From IMG/VR virus record IMGVR_UViG_3300030450_002477, positions 5,492 to 31,874 of that record: 26,383 nt of DNA; one strand, written 5' to 3'. The notes under the pieces are model-generated. The model saw only the letters and a list, made by a program, of their open reading frames with translations, ran no database searches and was not told the origin of the DNA. The stretch comes from a virus. Position numbers and translations under genes: made by a program. Position 1 is the first letter of the stretch. Every line of letters begins with the position of its first letter. Below, in pieces: positions 7,205 through 18,125 of the stretch.

Positions 7205-7278
7205 GGGATAGTAGTTCAGTGGTTTAGAATGCTGCCCTGTCACGGCAGAGGTCGTGGGTTCAAATCCCATCTGTCCCG
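7205..7278 (+). tRNA. tRNA-Asp (anticodon GTC)
   Basis: A full cloverleaf folds by hand: acceptor GGGATAG with CTGTCCC (one T-G wobble), D stem GTTC/GAAT, anticodon stem CTGCC/GGCAG with loop CTGTCAC (anticodon GTC at 7239-7241), T stem GTGGG/CCCAT with loop TTCAAAT, discriminator G at 7278. CCA is not encoded. It reads GAC and GAT codons; GAT is common in the neighbouring genes. Phage tRNAs usually supplement host pools for the phage codon bias. Confidence 0.96.
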
Positions 7279-10844: not shown

Positions 10845-11107
10845 TTAGCGACCTCCATATACTTCATGTAAGATGAAAAGAATTGTGGTAAATGTTGATT
10901 GTTATCTGTTACCTTATAATTGTAATTCTCTTTGTATTCTTTACATTGAAAATCATATTCACTTTTGGTTATTATCATTTTCTTTTGTGTATCTCCACGA
11001 AATGATAATACTTTCAACATGTGATTAGGGTTGATATGATTATTACTCCAATGTTTCACTGGATAATAATCAACGACCATATTGCCGTCCTTAGATGTTA
11101 GTTGCAT
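10841..11107 (-). CDS. Hypothetical protein, 88 aa
   Basis: Starts MQLTSKDGNMVVDYYPVKHW. It alternates short beta-like strands and basic/aromatic residues, including KVLSFRGDTQKKMIITKSEY, ending YMKYMEVAK. It overlaps the upstream gene by 10 bases and the downstream one by ATGA. No motif recognised. Basic surface residues would allow nucleic acid binding, but this is speculation. Confidence 0.66.
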   Translation of the reverse strand: MQLTSKDGNMVVDYYPVKHWSNNHINPNHMLKVLSFRGDTQKKMIITKSEYDFQCKEYKENYNYKVTDNNQHLPQFFSSYMKYMEVAK

Positions 11108-17249: not shown

Positions 17250-17474
17250 CTATGCTTCAACTGCTTGTAGTTTACCACTTCTGCGATAACCTGCAATGAG
17301 ACTTCCTACAGACTCATTTCTTTCGAGAGTTGACTGTAAGTCATTGCGAAGTTGTGATGAATCCTTTGCAACAAAACCATAAAGTTTTTCATTGCCTTGG
17401 AATTGCACCTCAACTGCATTATTCTCGCCAAAGTTGACAGCAGCGATAGCACTAGATCCTTGGATTTTTGCCAT
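17250..17474 (-). CDS. KTSC-like small protein, 74 aa
   Basis: Starts MAKIQGSSAIAAVNFGENNA. SSAIxAV followed by a strand xxxVxF and a Y/F-G turn (VEVQFQGNEKLYGFV) resembles the KTSC domain, a short beta-rich domain found alone or fused to lysyl-tRNA-synthetase-like and nuclease proteins. The end (SLIAGYRRSGKLQAVEA) fits the KTSC helix-loop only weakly. It has no Shine-Dalgarno and sits directly behind the structured RNA region (17490-17938), which would be its leader if no separate promoter exists. It ends about 50 bases before a hairpin terminator. Confidence 0.55.
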   Translation of the reverse strand: MAKIQGSSAIAAVNFGENNAVEVQFQGNEKLYGFVAKDSSQLRNDLQSTLERNESVGSLIAGYRRSGKLQAVEA

Positions 17475-17489
17475 AGTGGTGATTACATT

Positions 17490-17938
17490 ATGTAAGGGAA
17501 CATGCCTAGTTTATACTCATACGACAGGAGTTGAATTAGTACTGGATGACTTTTAGTAGTTGCGACCTACGAGGCACATTCGCCTTTCCTCGTTCATAAT
17601 TGGGGAGTTTCAAGGGAGTGGGGCATCAACATAGGTTTCACCTATATGCCCAAATTTACCTACTGGGAATCGCTTACACCTGAACCCCCACCACTTTCAA
17701 CCATCTGTCCAGTGCAGTAATAGGTTTCTACCAACGATCATGTGACTGCTTCTAAGTCAGTCTAGTCGGTAGGTTTGGGGCAGTAGAACCACATATCCCT
17801 TGAAACTATAGGTCTTACGAAACTGATCCGAGATGTCTGACTGGTCAAGAGGTGCTTCACCTGATCCTAACTCATTATGAGTCTAATTACAGGTACTAAC
17901 TCAGTCTCAGGGATCGGCATCCTTTTCTGCCTATAAAC
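17490..17938 (-). ncRNA. Unidentified structured RNA candidate, or giant structured leader
   Basis: About 450 bases with no convincing frame, visibly less AT-rich than its flanks, just downstream of a good sigma70-type promoter (17941-17968). Read on the minus strand it forms nested long-range helices. TGAGTTAGTAC (17903-17893) pairs with GTACTAATTCA (17542-17532), 11 bp with one G-U. Inside, AGTTTCAAGGGA (17807-17796) pairs with TCCCTTGAAACT (17617-17606), 12 perfect bp. Local hairpins: AGGTG/CACCT (17862-17850), CTACC/GGTAG (17772-17728) enclosing GACTG/CAGTC (17762-17744), a bulged 12-bp stem GGGCATATAGGT with partner (17651-17621), and ACGAGG/CCTCGT (17593-17569). It lacks the landmarks I know for tmRNA, RNase P RNA and group I introns. 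Ends are approximate. Confidence 0.6.
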
Positions 17939-18125
17939 ATATTATAACAGATCCAGACCTCATGTAAATGGTTCTTGTGACACTTTGTAGACTGTCACAC
18001 AGATAAAATTTATCTGCAAGTCTGAGGTGATCCAGTTGCCTTTTTTTGAACCTATATTCATTCTCGGTATAATAGACCTCATTATCATCAATGAGGTCAC
18101 TATAATCGGTAGCAGAATCAAACAT
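17931..18125 (-). CDS. Doubtful or truncated small ORF, 64 aa
   Basis: The N-terminal 43 residues look coding (MFDSATDYSDLIDDNEVYYT, then RFKKRQLDHLRLADKFYL). From about residue 44 the frame runs through dyad copy 6 and the promoter of the structured RNA (TIYMRSGSVIICL), so the C-terminus is probably not original. Either the dyad and promoter were inserted into an older gene, or the gene overlaps them. It follows the CobS-like gene by 23 bases. Function unknown. Confidence 0.4.
   Translation of the reverse strand: MFDSATDYSDLIDDNEVYYTENEYRFKKRQLDHLRLADKFYLCDSLQSVTRTIYMRSGSVIICL
17941..17968 (-). promoter_or_regulatory. Sigma70-type promoter for the structured RNA
   Basis: On the minus strand TTTACA (17968-17963), 16-base spacer, TATAAT (17946-17941). 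The only promoter of the leftward series with a recognisable -35. Transcription would start near 17934. Confidence 0.65.
17976..17999 (-). promoter_or_regulatory. Recurrent intergenic dyad, copy 6
   Basis: On the minus strand TGTGACAGT, CTACAA, AGTGTCACA: 7-base outer arms TGTGACA/TGTCACA are perfect. It ends 8 bases before the -35 of the structured-RNA promoter, the position of a classical activator site. Confidence 0.65.

Follow-up and report, generated by a model that had tools for sequence, protein, structure and literature searches.

What does a phage keep between a promoter and a gene when no protein is encoded there? The question is raised by a gene-free stretch of 510 nt (positions 17490-17999) in the window, by which we mean the whole 26,383-nt stretch of viral DNA that was analysed (from IMG/VR record IMGVR_UViG_3300030450_002477). 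A preliminary description, made from this sequence alone, had proposed either a new structured RNA or a giant 5' leader. In our analysis it is a real structured RNA on the minus strand, from about 17935 to 17475, and most likely also a giant leader of the small gene 17474-17250. What did not survive is the idea of a single large fold, since the RNA consists of independently folding modules instead. The stretch belongs to a family of phage mRNA leaders, apparently undescribed, that are built from folded modules. The recurrence of these modules, their nesting and the palindrome described below are beyond the reach of a reading of a single sequence.

The gene-free stretch of the window

Once the minus strand is read, all elements named in the preliminary description lie at the correct coordinates. 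There is indeed a promoter, TTTACA (17968-17963) and TATAAT (17946-17941) with a spacing of 16 nt. No credible ORF crosses 17560-17930, and the stretch is less AT-rich than its surroundings, as claimed (GC 0.44 versus about 0.35). The label "KTSC-like" for the downstream gene is unsupported: a Pfam search with its 74-aa protein gives nothing at E<0.01. The features of the stretch are given here, with module names coined in this analysis.

17941-17968, minus strand: promoter TTTACA-16 nt-TATAAT, from the sequence and from the -10 spacing in related leaders
17916-17931, minus strand: small hairpin GGCAgaaaaggaUGCC at the 5' terminus, probably where the transcript starts, from the sequence
17825-17921, minus strand: module D0, GAUGCCGAUCCCUGAGA (17921-17905) and CAGACAUCUCGGAUC (17839-17825) around D; recurs in 7 loci
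17841-17904, minus strand: module D, inside D0; nhmmer E 1.5e-17, stem pairs covary in 42 relatives
17606-17807, minus strand: module E, closed by a 12-bp helix and containing M2; nhmmer E 2.1e-24, covariation, fold z -2.5
17786-17781 with 17665-17660, minus strand: helix P3 of E, CUACUG with CAGUAG
about 17656-17617, minus strand: apical hairpin of E
17728-17772, minus strand: module M2 in E, with a minimal 2-nt guest loop and stems CUACCGAC/GUUGGUAG and GACUG/CAGUC; 93 instances, covariation
17693-17727, minus strand: M2b, conserved linker AAACCUAUUACUGCAC..CAGAUGGUUGAAAGU from M2 to the 3' half of E
17544-17593, minus strand: module M5, diverged variant with stem GAGG/CCUC and hairpin GUAGGUCGCAACUAC; nhmmer E 4.8e-4 and alignment with 26 relatives, hairpin covaries
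17538-17543, minus strand: palindromic hexamer AGTACT, immediately 3' of M5
17250-17474, minus strand: 74-aa gene 3' of the leader, no Pfam match
17532-17903, minus strand: 11-bp helix of the preliminary description (17903-17893 with 17542-17532), judged most likely coincidental

Two long helices in nested order had been called unlikely to arise by chance. This is true of one of them. A perfect 12-bp helix appeared in 1 of 60 dinucleotide shuffles of the stretch, whereas 11-bp helices containing no more than one G-U pair appeared in 8 of 60. Hence, only the 12-bp helix (17807-17796 with 17617-17606) is remarkable. It is P1, the closing helix of module E, and in homologues it covaries. The 11-bp helix exists, but it fails the test that the preliminary description had itself set: 2 of its 11 pairs are lost without compensation in two close relatives (L133 and L180). 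It is also near chance level. Its partners belong to the conserved core of D and to the palindrome after M5. We rejected the idea that the 11-bp helix closes a single global fold; the helix is most likely coincidental.

The folding energies do not single out the stretch as a whole, which is no more stable than its shuffles (z -0.9 on the plus and -1.3 on the minus strand). The E domain (17807-17606) is unusually stable, its z of -2.5 being matched by 1 in 200 shuffles. A bulged stem noted earlier at 17651-17621 is the apical hairpin of E and is conserved. At the 5' end, the related leader L010 has GGCAA..UUGCC at the place of the terminal hairpin. D0 surrounds content other than D in L010 and L012, and M2b recurs together with E-nested M2.

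Nested modules in marine cyanophages

A blastn search of the stretch against phages returned short blocks of 82-97% identity, all in noncoding DNA and in other gene neighbourhoods, from P-SSM2, P-SSM5, P-SSM7 and single-cell marine viruses. Weak matches in S-SSM4 and S-SSM6b were later confirmed by module query. The cobS gene nearby has an identity of only about 70% among these phages. Laid side by side, the blocks differ in order and have extra sequence in between. When IMG/VR was scanned for the patterns of three block cores, at least 120, 81 and at least 120 loci were found. Related leaders are found in P-SSM2 (two in the whole genome, 0.7 kb apart, at 55,820-56,090 and 56,590-56,900), P-SSM5, P-SSM7 and S-SSM4, and modules in hundreds of marine cyanophage contigs. 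An occurrence in host genomes was rejected, since a 20-nt core of E gave 0 exact matches among the 84,980 prokaryote species of GTDB. Most loci are metagenomic contigs of shared ancestry, and all evidence is sequence comparison. DNA methylase genes adjoin the leaders of P-SSM2 and P-SSM7, and P-SSM5 has a gene of the same size there (L001, L003, L278).

The modules differ in architecture. E is closed by P1 and P2; next come P3, a variable helix whose one-sided loop UUCAGGUGUAAGCGAUUCC is conserved, and the apical hairpin. In M2, two short stems are combined with a conserved ACAUGA side and with a joint, AC/AGAAG, that accepts a guest, and D has a variable closing stem surrounding GACUUAGUACC...GGUGAAGCACCUCUUGAGC. 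M3 spans 54 nt and has a UUCAG loop, M5 combines the stem GAGG/CCUC with a covarying hairpin, and M6-M8 are further recurring pieces. M5 would be a pseudoknot if GGAUGU pairs with ACAUCC; both are almost invariant, so covariation is no test of this pairing. M9 looks like an H-type pseudoknot, the pairs of which look consistent, with covariation that is not significant in 24 sequences. E and M2 have a GGUUC-helix-GGUAA junction in common (e.g., window 17790-17655), which may be a recurrent three-dimensional motif.

Modules sit inside each other. The guest site of M2 holds 2 nt in about a quarter of copies; in the others it is occupied by M3, D, E, M6 or a different insert of 35-221 nt that is closed by a stem. 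E contains no guest, M3, M2, M6, M2 plus M3, or other inserts, and D a hairpin, M3 or other inserts. Nesting is even reciprocal: E contains M2 in the window, and M2 contains E in three other leaders (L240, L078, L269). Such an arrangement is difficult to account for if the modules do not fold independently. Simple pattern matching distinguishes 109 orders of module landmarks among 315 distinct leaders. Many guests end in GGCA...UGUAAGUCC within a variable stem, like a common adaptor joint (M3 copies, L027 at about 11000-11060, the M2 guest of L245). We rejected a protein-coding origin, as the stretch has no ORF through it and guests do not come in multiples of three nucleotides.

Covariation was judged against a null in which the parsimony substitutions of each column are re-placed on the tree, a home-made procedure and not R-scape. 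The P3 pairs of E are paired in 97-99 of 99 sequences despite 10-17 substitutions per column. They lie above all or nearly all simulations, as do pairs in both stems of M2, in D, in both stems of M3 and in the M5 hairpin. On tool-made alignments, both partners change in 15 of the 29 pairs of minimal E copies (n=28), which none of 500 shuffles reach, and the covariation score of M5 falls from 0.35 to at most 0.07 when the partners are slid. High scores also occur for some non-pairs in E and D, as linkage between neighbouring columns would lead one to expect, and the alignment is ambiguous in columns 73-93 of E, the apical hairpin.

Near-identical phages provide two natural experiments. The leaders of L133 and L180 are 95-96% identical to that of the window and differ mainly in M2 and the palindrome (L180 also in the apical hairpin of E). 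Both stems of M2 have been swapped with compensation, from CUACCGAC/GUUGGUAG to CUUCUAAC/GUUAGAAG and from GACUG/CAGUC to CCCUG/CAGGG, and AGTACT has become AGATCT. The PSSM2_070 leader has different guests and different palindromes in P-SSM2 and P-SSM5 (CCATGG and GCTAGC), and the genes on both sides are nearly identical. The leader has been swapped between near-identical phages in both cases (window/L133 and P-SSM2/P-SSM5). Taken as comparative evidence, these data leave structure and modularity well supported. The simplest source of the shuffling is recombination between module copies.

One could also argue that the elements act as DNA: they would be mobile or recombination cassettes that bear hairpins, and the palindrome would be the place of recombination or cleavage. 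In favour of this, modules are exchanged fast between near-identical phages and a DNA methylase gene lies beside the leaders of P-SSM2 and P-SSM7. To us this seems very improbable. Compensatory stem changes include G-U pairs, the other end of the leader has no second copy of the hexamer, the hexamers of P-SSM2 and P-SSM5 differ between the same flanking genes, and the position is fixed between promoter and start codon.

From promoter to start codon

In related leaders, 6-9 nt mostly separate the end of the -10 box from the first base of the outermost helix. Where the leader begins with E or with a GGAAAACAAA clamp, the distance from a TATAAT-like box to the first paired base is mostly 6-7 nt (41 of 49, 31 of 60 and 10 of 11 leaders in three groups). 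Given this fixed distance, transcripts should begin at the helix or just before it. Leaders that begin with GUGUGAGG or AGUGAGAAACAG (e.g., L015, L028) are preceded by the motif GGGGG-ACG-TAAAGTGT instead of a TATAAT-type promoter; it is perhaps another promoter class of these phages.

At the other end, an ATG-initiated ORF of at least 38 aa comes after 264 of 355 leaders, at a median distance of 30 nt, and 51 of those without such an ORF stop at a contig edge. The genes behind the leaders fall into about 80 unrelated clusters, so there is no single obvious regulatory signal, and none of the seven downstream proteins scanned has a convincing Pfam match. At the level of sequence, the leaders have what is expected of cis-acting structured 5' leaders: a promoter ahead and a start codon close on the 3' side, both on the same strand, and a secondary structure that is conserved through compensatory changes.

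Every one of the 75 M5 copies has the terminal CAUCC and, next to it, a self-complementary hexamer. The hexamer comes in eight kinds (GCTAGC 26, CACGTG 18, CCTAGG 11, CTATAG 10, CCATGG 6, AGATCT 2, TCTAGA 1 and AGTACT 1). It is paired in 56 of 56 sequences, all three pairs vary on both sides, and the two outer pairs exceed the tree-aware null. Thus, the stretch varies in sequence and stays self-complementary, as expected of a self-dimerising RNA. The two bases of the central pair are adjacent and cannot pair within one chain; hence, the change on both sides points to a partner in a second RNA. Palindrome switching of this kind has served as evidence for symmetric kissing in OLE and GOLLD (PMC12286853). 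We read the hexamer as a signature of RNA-RNA homodimerisation, and dimerisation as a possible switch.

Two other roles for the hexamer were rejected. As for pairing with another site of the same RNA, there is only 1 extra copy near the 75 M5 copies versus 2.7 for other hexamers. It is probably not the site of the neighbouring methylase either, because the palindromes of P-SSM2 and P-SSM5 differ and the corresponding neighbour gene is kept in both (compared by its length of 921 bp and nearly identical flanks). Matched palindromes within one phage are seen in a single case: of 44 contigs searched, only one has two M5 copies, both with GCTAGC.

In 53 of 55 cases, 15-23 nt separate the end of the hexamer from the start codon. 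The spacer is 59% T and 2% G, with no Shine-Dalgarno core in 53. The window is exceptional, with its hexamer 63 nt from its gene. Two tiny ORFs, ATGAGTATAAACTAG and ATGTTCCCTTACATAATGTAA, lie between palindrome and gene in the window (17520-17475, minus strand), and ATGAGTATAAACTAG starts 17 nt past the palindrome, a spacing that is also found for the genes of other leaders.

M5 also has a Shine-Dalgarno-like GAGGAG, in-frame ATGs and high conservation, so that it might encode a short leader peptide (MDVPLGSQPKKELTS...) and be conserved as coding sequence. There is little chance of this. Changes in the hairpin preserve pairing and often alter the reading, the frame is shifted in L014 and broken in the variant of the window, and the hexamer CTATAG gives an in-frame stop where the others do not.

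A modular leader and its closest relatives

The leaders are outside every family model tested. As the preliminary description had noted, landmarks of GOLLD, ROOL, tmRNA, RNase P RNA and group I introns are missing. Searches of Rfam with cmscan gave no GOLLD, ROOL, OLE or riboswitch match, neither at the gathering threshold for the window and 11 loci nor at an E-value threshold for the window and the leaders of L007 and L012. There was no Rfam match at gathering score to tmRNA, RNase P RNA or group I/II introns, ARAGORN yielded tRNA-Asp only, and no splicing sites or Rfam intron match were found for the leaders. This tRNA-Asp (anticodon gtc, 7205-7278) is the sole Rfam or ARAGORN match within the window.

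The closest known RNAs are alike in single respects only. Tandem riboswitches place several RNA elements in one leader, and twintrons are RNA elements lodged within one another. Unlike the leaders, neither shows reciprocal nesting of many module types. Retroviral dimerisation initiation sites pair two viral RNA copies through a self-complementary hexamer, and phi29 pRNA is a viral RNA that pairs with another copy. The retroviral hexamer sits in a hairpin loop, whereas that of the leaders follows M5 in eight versions near the start codon, and its dimer is a prediction. Both retroviral dimerisation sites and phi29 pRNA have been named as RNA multimers (PMC12286853).

GOLLD, ROOL and OLE are, like the leaders, large structured RNAs; GOLLD and ROOL are phage-associated, and palindrome switching in a self-pairing element supports homo-oligomers of OLE and GOLLD (PMC12286853). 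Oligomerisation has been shown for all three, whereas we infer it for the leaders. Could the leaders be free-standing noncoding RNAs of this sort, large, ornate and phage-borne with a switching palindrome, the downstream gene being incidental or expressed from a processed transcript? About 80 unrelated clusters of downstream genes and leaders without any such gene would fit. We nevertheless consider it unlikely. Each known ornate RNA holds one fixed, global architecture, whereas the leaders consist of freely nested modules of hugely variable content, with no sequence or covariance match to them. Unlike these RNAs, the leaders usually lie directly before a gene start, at a close and narrow spacing and with a G-poor spacer, and many lack M5 and the palindrome.

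Structured 5' leader motifs of T4-like cyanophages, namely manA, wcaG and PhotoRC-II, are alike in another respect (PMC2864571, Weinberg 2010). They are tied to metabolic or photosynthesis genes, whereas the leaders are not, nest in one another and have no Rfam match. As manA and wcaG are riboswitch-like, each module could similarly be an aptamer that senses a metabolite or protein, and the nest a riboswitch-like device with multiple inputs. Conserved unpaired cores within freely varying stems and the position as 5' leader are in line with this idea. We regard it as improbable, given that no riboswitch in Rfam matches, no single pathway is involved, and no obvious terminator or anti-Shine-Dalgarno alternative was noticed beside the modules on informal inspection.

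Our preferred reading, with a probability of about 0.6, is a modular leader acting in cis: it would cap the 5' end and control how a phage gene is translated, possibly with dimerisation as a switch. Transcription would start at the first base of the outermost helix or just before it, and the 5' end would be base-paired at once. Such an end would protect the transcript from 5'-dependent decay. Comparison shows the leader to be a nest of compact modules, each closed by a helix that is free to vary; hence, one module can replace the loop of another. The module beside the gene is often M5, and in relatives the hexamer and then a U-rich, nearly G-free spacer lie ahead of the start codon. Palindrome switching suggests that the hexamer pairs with the same hexamer on a second transcript, which may tie translation to transcript concentration or keep several mRNAs together. 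Transcription from the promoter, cis control of stability and translation, and dimerisation are what we infer from these patterns. Some points speak against a cis-acting leader: some leaders have no gene directly 3' (e.g., the first of L007), the M5 of the window is diverged and far from its gene, and the many unrelated gene clusters offer no single obvious regulatory signal.

More tentatively, and at somewhat below even odds, the leaders could form a combinatorial RNA cassette system. A library of nestable modules would be reshuffled by recombination into hypervariable leaders, and the switching palindrome would be the dimerisation identity of each leader, restricting association to transcripts of the same kind.

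We found no earlier description of such leaders in the open-access papers searched. What appears to be new is their organisation into reciprocally nestable modules, not their being structured leaders as such. If our reading is true, then these phages carry a class of viral RNA that varies by whole folded domains, not by single bases, with many possible orders of nesting. Whether mutually exclusive palindrome dimerisation serves to control expression of natural phage mRNAs then becomes a testable question. Since cultured P-SSM2 carries two leaders and the modules are independent covarying folds, such experiments are feasible now.
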